Part shown: one piece after another, positions 6,605-11,058 of the stretch
Position numbering within the stretch: the stretch's first letter is position 1
Layout: each line of letters opens with the position of its first letter
Origin: Prochlorococcus sp. AG-418-D13
GTDB taxonomy: Bacteria; Cyanobacteriota; Cyanobacteriia; PCC-6307; Cyanobiaceae
DNA: 64,000 nt
Assembly: GCA_003214315.1 (NCBI GenBank)
Contig: QCLU01000005.1
Location: forward strand, 62,001-126,000
Direction: 5' to 3'
Made by a program: the position numbers and the translations under genes
The notes under the pieces: generated by a model
Seen by the model: only the letters and a program-made list of their open reading frames with translations
Databases searched by the model: none
What the model was told of the DNA's origin: nothing

Positions 6605-7339
6605 GTGACTGACAAATTTCAAAATGATATAAAAAATCTTATTGAAGAATTCAACTTTAATGGGTATAAAAAATTTAAATTAATTGTTTTATTTGGTTTA
6701 TTGGGAGATTTTGATAGCTTTGAATATGCAATAAATTTGAAAAGTTTTATCGATAAAAATCAAGATAAAAATTTAGATATTTTTGCAATTGCTATTGGGA
6801 ACCAAAATGGGAAAGAAAAATTCTGTAAATTCACAGGCTTTCAGAAAGAAAATTTAATAGTTGTTTCTGATAATCAAATTCATAATAATCTAAAAGTCTC
6901 AAGAGGATTAGATATTGGATTAGGAGGTTGGATCAATATGCTTTTGATGTTATCAGGGATAAATTCTTTTAAAACAATTAAAGAAGTTATTAGAGGTTAT
7001 ACCGGCGACCGAAAAGCAAAGAAAATCTATTCAGAATTTGACAAAATTAATATTTTAAACTTTTTAAAATTTTCAGGTAATTCTTTTAAAAAGGTTTTCG
7101 GGGATGGATATTTGAGACCATTTGAATTAGCAACATTTAGATTAAATAATATGAATGAAATAATTCAAAATTGGAGTGATTATATTCTTAATGAAGAATA
7201 CCTTCCTCAAAGAGGGGCTTCTTTTCTATTAAATAATAAAAATCAAATTATTTATAAATTTTTTTCAAACGATGTACTTGGATATTCATCAAACATGAGG
7301 GATCCCTTAGGATTTTTGACTGATTTAATTAAAGAATAG
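6605..7339 (+). CDS. AhpC/TSA-like (peroxiredoxin-like) protein
   Basis: The 244-residue product resembles the AhpC-TSA_2/PRXL2 branch of the thioredoxin fold: a central DIFAIAIGNQNGKEKFCKFTGF segment and the C-terminal PQRGASFLLNNKNQIIYKFF, which is the characteristic late beta hairpin. No Cys-x-x-Cys pair is present and the single Cys near residue 75 is not in the classic position, so peroxidase activity is uncertain. It starts with GTG at 6605 and is transcribed away from flavodoxin; the shared spacer could hold a common stress promoter. Confidence 0.65.
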   Translation: MTDKFQNDIKNLIEEFNFNGYKKFKLIVLFGLLGDFDSFEYAINLKSFIDKNQDKNLDIFAIAIGNQNGKEKFCKFTGFQKENLIVVSDNQIHNNLKVSRGLDIGLGGWINMLLMLSGINSFKTIKEVIRGYTGDRKAKKIYSEFDKINILNFLKFSGNSFKKVFGDGYLRPFELATFRLNNMNEIIQNWSDYILNEEYLPQRGASFLLNNKNQIIYKFFSNDVLGYSSNMRDPLGFLTDLIKE

Positions 7340-7355
7340 TTTTTAAAATATTTTT

Positions 7356-7613
7356 ATGAATGTAGATATATTTGGATATTTTGCAGCGATTTTAACAACA
7401 GCAGCATTTCTACCTCAATTGATAAAAACTTTAAAAACAAAAAAGGCGGATGATGTTTCTTTGACAACATTAATAATGTTTATTATTGGTGTTTTGTCTT
7501 GGATTATTTACGGTTATAAGATTTCTTCTACACCAATATTGATAGCAAATTTAATTACCGTGATCTTAAATTTATTGATATTAATCTCTAAAATATATTT
7601 TTCAAAAAACTAA
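7356..7613 (+). CDS. SemiSWEET-type small sugar transporter
   Basis: This 85-residue protein has three predicted membrane helices (about 4-21, 38-54, 62-80) and the PQ-loop motif LPQLIKTLKTKKADDVS, matching the bacterial SemiSWEET (MtN3/saliva) family, which works as a dimer to move sugars by facilitated diffusion. Length is normal for the family. It follows the peroxiredoxin-like gene by 16 bp and is probably on the same transcript. Substrate is not known. Confidence 0.88.
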   Translation: MNVDIFGYFAAILTTAAFLPQLIKTLKTKKADDVSLTTLIMFIIGVLSWIIYGYKISSTPILIANLITVILNLLILISKIYFSKN

Positions 7614-7664
7614 AATGAGTAAAATTTTTTTAAAAGTAATAAACTTATATTTATTACTTAAATA

Positions 7665-7919
7665 TTGATTAAGATAGAAAAAAATTTACTGATCTTGAAA
7701 ACTTCAAAATGCTGGGTTTGGTTTAAGGGAAGCCTTAACAATGGTGGATATTGGAAAGAAGGTTTTACATGTACTTTTGATGAGAACCCAGGAGTTTTAA
7801 TAGAAAGTCCTGCTTACGTAACTTGTCGGGTTCCTACATGGAGAGTTTTGACTAAAGAACCAGAAGATTTATATAAATCACCTCTAATTCCTGACAAAGC
7901 AATCTGGAAAATAATTTAA
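7665..7919 (+). CDS. Conserved small protein, 84 residues, unknown function
   Basis: The product is rich in aromatic residues and Pro, with segments SKCWVWFKGSLNNGGYW and SPAYVTCRVPTWRVLTKEP, and looks like a compact beta-rich soluble domain. I do not recognise a family. The only start available upstream of the conserved-looking part is TTG at 7665; the exact N-terminus is therefore uncertain. Confidence 0.55.
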   Translation: MIKIEKNLLILKTSKCWVWFKGSLNNGGYWKEGFTCTFDENPGVLIESPAYVTCRVPTWRVLTKEPEDLYKSPLIPDKAIWKII

Positions 7920-7989
7920 ATTCTCAATTAACAATAAAAAACTTTTTGACTGCACTACGGCGAGTTAATATTGCTTTAATAAATATTTA

Positions 7990-8919
7990 ATTAATACCAT
8001 CTACTCTCTTTTTATAAATATTATCCCTTTTTTAATCTTTGGTTTTCTTCTGGGGAAAAAGAATTCAAAGATTTCAAAATATATCGCGAGACCTCTAATA
8101 AGATTTGGCATTCCATTAAGTGTCATGGGTCTCCTATTAAAGGAAGGTATAGATATAAACCTAATTAAAAGTGCATTTTTAGCATTCTCTATAATTGGAT
8201 TTTTAATAACTTTAATAAATATAATCCCAATATTTAAAAAGAGGCTTCCAAATTACACATTGCAGCTAGCAGGCCTAATAGGTAATACATCATTTCTAGG
8301 AATACCAATTGCCCTTGCTATTCTACCTTCAACAACTATAAATTTCACTATTGGATTTGATTTAGGAACAACACTTTTCGCTTGGATATTTGGACCTTTT
8401 TTTCTTCAAGAAAAATCCAACAGCAATTACATCCCAAACATCAAAGGACTATTAAATGCATTGATAAATAGCCCTGCATCAAGAGGGATTATTGGTGTGC
8501 TTCTTGCATATCTTTTTCAAATAGATGAAATTTTAGGCAATTATCTTTGGATTCCTGCAAGAATAGTTATTGCTTTGGCAATAATAATTGTGGGAACAAG
8601 ACTTGGAATAATCACAAATCAAAATGAGAGGATTTTGGATCTAAATGCAGAAATTAAATTTTCAATTTTATTAAAGTTATTTATTCTTCCATTTATTATT
8701 TTTTTAGTATGCAAATTCTTAAATTTTAACTTCTATCAATCATCTGCAGTAATTCTTCAGGCAGCAACCCCACCGGCAATATCCACAATATTAATGGCAG
8801 AGGCATATGGGGTGAAGCAAAAAATAGCTTCAAAAATTCTTTTTACTACAACCTTAATTTCAATAATTACAATTCCTATATTAAAAATGTTTATGAATTT
8901 ATTTATTCAAACAACTTAA
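7990..8919 (+). CDS. AEC-family permease with no standard start codon
   Basis: The frame encodes an auxin-efflux-carrier-type membrane protein of about 309 residues with some 9-10 hydrophobic helices and the family-typical proline-rich AATPPAISTILMAEAYG near the C-terminus. The first in-frame ATG (8125) would remove the first helix, yet the frame continues upstream with a clear helix (SLFINIIPFLIFGFLLG) followed by basic residues and RPLIRFGIPLSVMG, all typical of the family N-terminus. No ATG, GTG or TTG exists between the upstream stop (7966-7968) and 8125; ATT at 7990 or ATC at 7999 are the candidates. The permease identity is secure; the start is not. Substrate is unknown. Confidence 0.75.
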   Translation: MNTIYSLFINIIPFLIFGFLLGKKNSKISKYIARPLIRFGIPLSVMGLLLKEGIDINLIKSAFLAFSIIGFLITLINIIPIFKKRLPNYTLQLAGLIGNTSFLGIPIALAILPSTTINFTIGFDLGTTLFAWIFGPFFLQEKSNSNYIPNIKGLLNALINSPASRGIIGVLLAYLFQIDEILGNYLWIPARIVIALAIIIVGTRLGIITNQNERILDLNAEIKFSILLKLFILPFIIFLVCKFLNFNFYQSSAVILQAATPPAISTILMAEAYGVKQKIASKILFTTTLISIITIPILKMFMNLFIQTT

Positions 8920-9004
8920 ATGAAAGCCTTTTACTTAATGCATGATTTATGAATATTGTAAAGATTGTATCCTGATAACTAAATAATGTCTTAAGATTTA
9001 GTAT

Positions 9005-9256
9005 ATGAAGTCAGCAAACCCTGAAAATGAATATATCCCTTTAGATCTAAGGATTTCTGTGAGGAGGGATACTCTAAGGCTCATCTCAGAGATGGCTCAA
9101 GATATGGGAATAAGCATTAATGAAGTTTTTAGTTTTTTAGCAGAGGATTCTGTCATCGATCTCGAATTAATGGAAGATTTAAATAAAATTGATATCCCGA
9201 ACAAGTGCAGCATTGATGATTTAAAAAATGCTCTTCTTAAAAAAAGACTTTGTTAA
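9005..9256 (+). CDS. Small ribbon-helix-helix-like protein
   Basis: This is an 83-residue protein whose N-terminal half (IPLDLRISVRRDTLRLISEMAQDMGISINEVFSFL, residues 12-46) has the strand-helix-helix pattern of Arc/CopG-type DNA-binding proteins: alternating hydrophobic strand, helix, Gly turn, helix. The C-terminal half is acidic and helical. A DNA-binding regulatory role is inferred from this pattern only. Its stop overlaps the stop of the converging GT39 gene. Confidence 0.5.
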   Translation: MKSANPENEYIPLDLRISVRRDTLRLISEMAQDMGISINEVFSFLAEDSVIDLELMEDLNKIDIPNKCSIDDLKNALLKKRLC

Positions 9257-11058
9257 AATTTTTCAACTTTTCTATTTTCCCAGTCAGATTTATAACCACT
9301 TTTAACTAAAAATCTCGAATACTTATTTAAATCACTTTTTTGAATTCGCCATAAATTATAAATCCCAAATTTGCCCAATTTTTGATGATTAATTTTTGAC
9401 CATTGCTCTCTGCGGGTAGAATATTCATCTATCACGACCAATAGAGATTTGTATTCATAATCAGGTTGATCCTCATAATTCTCTCTCCTATCAGTATTTA
9501 GCCTTTCTGAAAGATTAATTAATCCCTCTTCAGTGTTGGGTTCATAAAAAACTATTTGTCTCGAATAATAATGTAATGAAGGTTTTCTTATCCCAATCAT
9601 CGCTAAAGTTTCCCTTCTCTCACGAATATCTAAAATTAATTTTGAGATATTCCTTAAAGGCAATTGCCTTGAAGTATCTGCTAATTTTCTAATTGGCGAC
9701 ATCAAATAAGATTGTCCAATTAAAAGTAAAATTTGAAGATAAAGAAGGATATTTTTAGATTTTAAAGAAAATAAAATTATTGCAAGAACGGTAAATGAAG
9801 AGAAGAATAATTTAGCTTTGAAAATAATCCCAGAGCTTAAAAGTTCGGATGCAAGATTAGGCATTTCGGGATCATTAATTGAACTCAACCAAAAATTCGA
9901 GAAAAAGAATGCTATTGAGAAGCCAAACAAAATTAAAATATTAAAAATCCAGAAATATAAATAACTTTTATTTATATTTTTTAAGCTTATAAAGCTATTA
10001 CTTGTTAATAATGCCGCCGCTGGAATGGCTGGCAACCAATAGCTAGGTAGTTTCGTTGCAGAAAGGCTAAAGAAGATTAAAACTGACGTTAACCAACATA
10101 GAGAATATGTATAGAGGGTTTCAGTGACATTGCAAGTTTCTTTTGAACTTTTATAGAAATCCTCAAAGGTTTTAAATATCCCATGATACAAAAAAGGAGT
10201 GAATGGTAATGAAGCCAAAATCATTATGTAAAGAAAAAACCAGAATGGTTCTGCATGATTATTTACAACTGAGGTATATCTTTGAAAATTATGGTAACCA
10301 AAAAAATTATCCCAAAAAGGCTTTCCCTCTTTTAGAAGTTCTAATATGTACCATGGAACACTTATAAGTGTTGTAATTAAAAAACCTTTCTTTGGGTTTA
10401 TCTTACTGAGCAACGTTTTCCAATTCTTCTGACAAAACAAGAAAGACGTAATAGTCAATAATGCCAAAACAAATGCAACAGGTCCTTTAACTAAAATTGC
10501 AAAACCTAAAAATACCCAAGCTGAAATGCATTGATCATTATTTTTACTTGCCATTCTTCTCCAAAACAAAAGCAGGCTAATCCCCAAGGTTCCAGTTAAA
10601 AGGGCATCACTCACGGCGGTTCTACTCCAAATAATTATTAATGGAGAAAGAGCAAAGCCTAATGATGCAACTATTGGAGTGAAGAATTGTTCATCACCTT
10701 TCTGTGGCCAACAAAACAACGTATCTCCAATCATCAACATTAAAAATAATGATCCCAAAGCTGAAGGAAGTCTTGCTGAGAGCGTCCCGAGACTATCCCA
10801 AACCTCGTTTTTCGGTAATGAGTAAAAAAAACCCATTAGCCAATATATGAGCGGAGGCTTATCAAAACGGAATATTCCATTGACTTTTGGAGTTAACCAA
10901 TCACCAGATTCACTCATCGCCCTTGCCGCAACAGCAAATAAAGGGGGAGTTTCATCCACCAGTCCCGTAGTTCCTAAACCTAAAATAAATATAATGATTC
11001 CAAAAACTAAAACTATCAGTAAGGTTATAAGCCTTTTTTTTGAGTTAAGAATAATCAT
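9253..11058 (-). CDS. GT39-family (ArnT/PMT-like) membrane glycosyltransferase
   Basis: The 601-residue protein has about 11-12 membrane helices followed by a soluble C-terminal part. The first periplasmic loop carries the acidic pair in LVDETPPLFAVAARAM and the RFDKPPLIYW motif (about 62-71), both hallmarks of the GT39/ArnT superfamily, which transfers sugars from polyprenyl phosphates to lipids or proteins on the periplasmic face. The next downstream gene on the same strand is unrelated, but the GT4 gene just upstream may be co-transcribed (14 bp apart). Donor and acceptor are unknown; lipid A or glycolipid decoration is possible. Confidence 0.85.
   Translation of the reverse strand: MIILNSKKRLITLLIVLVFGIIIFILGLGTTGLVDETPPLFAVAARAMSESGDWLTPKVNGIFRFDKPPLIYWLMGFFYSLPKNEVWDSLGTLSARLPSALGSLFLMLMIGDTLFCWPQKGDEQFFTPIVASLGFALSPLIIIWSRTAVSDALLTGTLGISLLLFWRRMASKNNDQCISAWVFLGFAILVKGPVAFVLALLTITSFLFCQKNWKTLLSKINPKKGFLITTLISVPWYILELLKEGKPFWDNFFGYHNFQRYTSVVNNHAEPFWFFLYIMILASLPFTPFLYHGIFKTFEDFYKSSKETCNVTETLYTYSLCWLTSVLIFFSLSATKLPSYWLPAIPAAALLTSNSFISLKNINKSYLYFWIFNILILFGFSIAFFFSNFWLSSINDPEMPNLASELLSSGIIFKAKLFFSSFTVLAIILFSLKSKNILLYLQILLLIGQSYLMSPIRKLADTSRQLPLRNISKLILDIRERRETLAMIGIRKPSLHYYSRQIVFYEPNTEEGLINLSERLNTDRRENYEDQPDYEYKSLLVVIDEYSTRREQWSKINHQKLGKFGIYNLWRIQKSDLNKYSRFLVKSGYKSDWENRKVEKF

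Follow-up and report, generated by a model that had tools for sequence, protein, structure and literature searches.

The window (the whole 64-kb stretch of DNA that was analysed) comes from a genome of 1.62 Mb whose near named relatives are Prochlorococcus, MIT 9314, MIT 9201 and MIT 9107 among them; we take the window and these relatives to be high-light (HL) members of Prochlorococcus, a very abundant photosynthesiser of the ocean. On its forward strand an open frame runs from the stop TAA at 7966-7968 to the TAA at 8917-8919, with no ATG, GTG or TTG before the ATG at 8125. This confirms the frame given in a preliminary description, including the ATT at 7990 and the ATC at 7999 that it named as the codons able to begin a permease with a complete first helix. 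Read as 316 codons (7969-8919), the frame matches PF03547 at 49.3 bits (gathering threshold 25.7). Against TIGR00946, permease residue 12 aligns with model position 17 at 51.1 bits, a score under the cut-off of 246, so that the protein is best regarded as a distant AEC member outside that subfamily. The AlphaFold model (mean pLDDT 45, pTM 0.35) was too poor to judge an AEC/PIN-type fold with its first helix, and a sequence search of the PDB with the permease returned only matches with E > 0.6.

The conserved ORF immediately upstream is without a Pfam or NCBIfam match; in clade A (defined below) its end lies a median of about 79 nt from the permease start. Neighbours between 4738 and 7613 include an AhpC/TSA-like protein and a SemiSWEET transporter, according to Pfam and NCBIfam; others in that interval, on the minus strand, are presumably a Pcb/IsiA-like chlorophyll-binding protein and a flavodoxin. 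Features are collected in Table 1.

Table 1. Coordinates of the permease, its leader and candidate starts in the window, and of two further genes at other loci
Feature	Location	Strand	Remarks
Upstream 84-codon ORF	7665..7919	+	TTG start listed; ORF end recurs in both clades
Conserved non-coding leader	7940..7998	+	Most conserved in final 30 nt; AATACY abuts the proposed start codon
ATT, non-conserved candidate start	7990..7992	+	Other codons in 20/128
ATC, proposed initiation codon of AEC permease	7999..8001	+	Conservation, no ATA, onset of periodicity
AEC-family (Mem_trans) permease, first helix included	7999..8919	+	306 residues + stop; PF03547, TIGR00946 alignment
ATG, internal Met43	8125..8127	+	Met in 42/49 near relatives with their own upstream starts
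scpB, own genome	L347 (G000:C2:165398-165961)	minus	ATC start
scpB	L292:11246-11809		Conserved ATC/ATT start
Small orphan gene, signal-peptide-like beginning (by inspection)	L298:2510-2905	+	Conserved ATT start
Small orphan gene, own genome	L420 (G000:C11:32343-32720)	minus	

Conservation of the codon at 7999

Orthologues were drawn from a first set in which 84 of 99 genomes matched (other families included), a second in which 80 of 154 relatives were kept and a third in which 273 of 400 genomes matched (other genera included), together with additional stretches, and cover the genomes for which a locus was available. With the window added to the 215 loci there were 216 sequences, of which 173 stood at 55% identity or above, yielding 128 distinct same-genus sequences; those below 55%, mostly from other genera or families, were handled separately. 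Two groups of rows are referred to throughout: clade A, 111 rows more than 80% identical to the window, and clade B, 16 rows.

Across the 128 sequences, codon 7999 is ATC in 99 (MIT 9314, MIT 9201 and MIT 9107 among them), ATT in 28, GAG in one and ATA in none, counts which are non-independent as the rows are related. A fairer figure comes from a tree of 149 rows, built with the start codon excluded and with sister genus g86 left out, on which a single loss of ATG is followed by about 12 interchanges of ATC and ATT, at least four of them forced by well-supported branches. The one GAG belongs to L196, the sole same-genus sequence with a well-placed ordinary start (an ATG at an upstream codon), and no frameshift was found to supply such a start elsewhere. 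The sequencing error that the preliminary description had asked to be checked, or an equivalent error of assembly, can be rejected: the same codon class recurs in 127 of 128 sequences from single cells, isolates, the three MIT strains included, and one-contig genomes.

Elsewhere in the permease gene isoleucine is written as ATT (45.6%), ATA (42.8%) or ATC (11.7%), against 78% ATC at 7999. Among 18 columns of the first 150 codons that are at least 90% isoleucine (126 rows, the poorly aligned L117 being excluded), 7999 alone is devoid of ATA. Because ATA is missing there though it accounts for 43% of the gene's other isoleucine codons, 7999 does not behave as an ordinary isoleucine codon.

Where coding begins

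In clade A, pairwise differences at the three codon positions are 0.117/0.125/0.120 for the ten codons preceding 7999, 0/0/0.209 for codon 7999 and 0.058/0.020/0.214 for the 41 codons from 8002 to 8124; the corresponding figures in clade B are 0.31/0.25/0.24, 0/0/0.125 and 0.10/0.07/0.30. Periodicity is thus missing before 7999 and present after it, and the coding signature switches on exactly at this codon. The nearest in-frame stop lies 11 codons upstream in 96 of 127 sequences and two to seven codons upstream in 27, leaving four with no in-frame stop in those 11 codons. Ordinary in-frame starts upstream of 7999 occur in 5/127, all of them TTG at varying, non-conserved places; within the 13 codons downstream, a TTG at codon +10 or +11 is found in 16/127 and is likewise not conserved. 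Judged from these alignments, ATG, GTG or TTG cannot start the conserved coding frame of the permease.

The two candidates put forward in the preliminary description fared differently. Whilst ATC 7999 holds, ATT 7990 can be set aside: it is replaced by ACT, ATA, TTT, AAT, TAA and others where it is not conserved, and in L106 a stop separates it from 7999. Given the conserved codon, the onset of periodicity, the stops upstream, the internal position of 8125 and the lack of conservation at 7990, AUC 7999 is the most likely start of translation. The broader proposal that the start is something other than ATG, GTG or TTG is accordingly the best reading of the locus, with ATC or ATT in 127/128 and coding beginning at 7999.

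The leader

Over the final 30 nt before the start, pairwise difference in clade A is 0.07-0.09, compared with 0.21 at third codon positions, a rate taken from 103 of the 111 rows and lowered by the dropping of eight that matched poorly. Folding of the leader consensus gave no conserved RNA structure, an Rfam scan of 7300-9300 had a sole match at E 4.6, and a site scan placed neither a promoter-like nor a terminator-like site at the start. The Shine-Dalgarno trinucleotides GGA, GAG and AGG are absent between -22 and -4 of codon 7999 in 127/127 sequences; Prochlorococcus may use S1-type or leaderless initiation, in the account given by PMC5607370.

Competing explanations

The invariance of the codon might reflect a DNA element, AATACYATY, for example a -10 box overlapping the frame. 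TACCAT and TACTAT do resemble a -10 element, and the leader is conserved; however, the codon's third base is C or T only, although it falls outside the hexamer, the hexamer's own second base varies in 5/127, the promoter scan shows no site there, and the need for a start would remain in any case, all of which makes this explanation unlikely. A start at AAT 7993, with AUC as merely the third codon, has in its favour that the ancestral start aligns with this place, two codons ahead of 7999 and opposite the ATG, TTG or GTG of other genera, that the AAT is conserved in 124/128 (a figure that also counts against a start at 7999), and that in clade A third-position differences are slightly in excess at codon 7996. 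Set against this, AAU would have two mismatches to the initiator anticodon and is not plausible as a start codon, L106 carries TAA at that place, and an inner codon at 7999 would be expected to vary, both to ATA and to other residues, in the way its counterpart in other genera does; such a start is improbable.

It is more doubtful still that translation begins at an ordinary codon further upstream and reaches the permease by frameshifting or by read-through of the stop. In its favour, each of the 111 clade A spacers contains one or more ATG, GTG or TTG triplets when all frames are counted, and the leader is conserved, but the ten codons before 7999 are without coding periodicity, the in-frame stop alternates between TAA and TAG and shifts its place, and among the 15 clade B spacers that could be read (L121, whose spacer was misread, is uncounted) eight lack such a codon in every frame, so that frameshifting from a local start is ruled out in those eight. 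Least credible of all, with next to no probability, is a true start at ATG 8125, whether the preceding region is untranslated or 8125 opens a shorter isoform. This ATG is invariant across the rows compared, but codons 8002-8124 evolve as coding sequence, and the first helix is retained in other genera that have a start of their own. The orthologue comparison that the preliminary description had proposed weighs against it too: relatives do not start at 8125, and in near relatives with their own upstream starts the methionine is internal in 42 of 49 and replaced by I or T in the remaining seven.

Evolution and proposed mechanism

The permease frame is started by ATG in 25/25 loci of genera other than g86 (by inspection), whereas the 23 loci of sister genus g86 (L190, L194, L211, L265-L284) have TTG in 22, GTG in one and ATG in none, so that weak starts may have evolved in the permease gene on more than one occasion. 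For the genus of the window, the reading preferred here, to which comparative sequence evidence lends a probability of roughly 0.8, is that the permease initiates at the near-cognate AUC 7999 (AUU in some relatives). This codon would be decoded by the ordinary initiator tRNA-fMet to give 306 residues in which the first helix is intact; the ancestral AUG would have been lost once within the genus, and the weak codon since kept by selection. Such a codon, without a Shine-Dalgarno sequence, would be expected to hold output of the transporter low, and the start may be sensitive to initiation factor IF3, as are those of infC, pcnB and sigR. A regulatory purpose for the putative rare start, as suggested in the preliminary description, is plausible: an AUC or AUU start should keep the permease scarce or regulated.

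Initiation by tRNA-fMet alone leaves the absence of AUA at 7999 unaccounted for. An additional initiator resembling tRNA-Ile(GAU) would, if present, account for AUC and AUU without AUA; among the 30 of 39 tRNA loci above cut-off that were examined in G040, no such extra tRNA was found, the one GAU tRNA lying beside tRNA-Ala(TGC).

Further genes with AUC or AUU starts

The comparative signature of the permease, interchange of AUC and AUU without AUA, AUG or GUG together with the onset of coding at that codon, reveals a start that almost every member of the genus analysed has kept, and it identifies further genes when applied elsewhere. A survey compared 400 kb of G040 with G049 and G022, covering 242 or 263 gene-like frames depending on criterion; 64 had at least eight codons before their first ordinary start, of which 11 were inspected, as were 10 of a second list of 26. 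The survey being partial, the AUC/AUU-start genes found are a lower bound. Two more genes with a conserved start of this kind came to light, scpB and a small orphan gene. A survey of the 64-kb window, which mixed in antisense frames and in which matches were sparse beyond ~26 kb, left the AEC gene alone standing out by inspection.

Among 35 same-genus loci of scpB (PF04079) the start codon is ATC in 21 and ATT in 13, with L371 having ATT one codon downstream; no ordinary start is conserved, and a single locus has one in frame, eight codons upstream. In other genera, five of 20 scpB loci (L444, L446, L449, L452, L456) have no ordinary start ahead of the conserved domain and show ATC or ATT near the place of the others' ATG, although in L449 and L452 a TTG falls within the conserved part. 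Ordinary starts are present in the other 15, including L454 with a TTG two codons upstream. The orphan gene, which has no Pfam match, starts with ATT in 26 of 28 loci, ATC in one and GTT in one, with GGAG ahead of the start codon in 25/28 and an in-frame ordinary start in a single locus, 13 codons upstream. An apt-like gene of G040 (L304:16-507, minus strand) was rejected as a candidate: its start region is gone, most of the other 25 loci keep an upstream ATG, and it is probably a damaged copy confined to that genome.

A tentative generalisation, which we hold to be somewhat less probable than its converse, is that in HL Prochlorococcus, and partly in other Prochlorococcus genera, a small set of unrelated genes, the permease, scpB and a secreted orphan gene among them, with AUC or AUU starts, and never AUA in the sequences compared, forms a class of low or regulated output, with or without a Shine-Dalgarno sequence. 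If true, a class of start codon would be set apart for such output in a streamlined genome, probably with several more genes belonging to it, and the exclusion of AUA would hint at an initiation step that distinguishes AUY from AUA. With the comparative signature, a possible role of start-codon identity as a regulator in a minimal genome becomes testable. Standard gene finders would misplace the permease start, and gene starts can now be corrected in a much-sequenced marine bacterium; the same signature can be applied to any genus with dense sampling to look for genes of this kind.

Comparison with known systems

To our knowledge, few bacterial genes are known with an AUU or AUC start, and most were discovered singly by experiment. 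In Prochlorococcus, such starts are unannounced in the titles and opening lines of abstracts of the open-access papers listed by literature searches, one of which showed 10 of 264 matches. For infC, the gene for IF3, PMC5472188 gives the start codon as AUU (ATT) in E. coli but ATC in Streptomyces, and PMC13009471 gives AUA in S. aureus. This gene resembles the permease in a selected start of AUN type, and ATC is thus already documented for it; the two differ in that infC autoregulates the very factor that rejects such codons, whereas the gene here encodes a transporter. Within the genus, infC has an ATG start in the nine loci read of 15, so that IF3 is seemingly not self-controlled by the near-cognate route.

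The AUU start of E. coli pcnB, said in PMC1780047 to limit the amount of protein, is alike in being weak, but gene, lineage and function are unrelated. The same source describes AUU starts for lepA of Borrelia burgdorferi and Bacillus licheniformis, proposed from sequence since an ordinary start cannot restore the full protein, an argument like the one made here, although that account deals with single genomes, with no test of conservation seen in it. Closer in kind is sigR of Streptomyces, whose conserved near-cognate start had been overlooked by annotation and for which repression by IF3 is shown (PMC5472188); its codon is GTC and its product a sigma factor, and dependence on IF3 is a property of sigR that the permease may share. 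In S. aureus, ccpN (AUA) and cvfC1 (AUU) have conserved non-canonical starts with extended Shine-Dalgarno motifs, and AUU/AUA output is put at ~10% of AUG in poor medium and up to 30% for ccpN in rich medium (PMC13009471). The permease site, in contrast, has neither a Shine-Dalgarno sequence nor AUA, and the motif is here taken as a trait of the S. aureus cases rather than a requirement for genes of the AUU/AUC/AUA-start kind.
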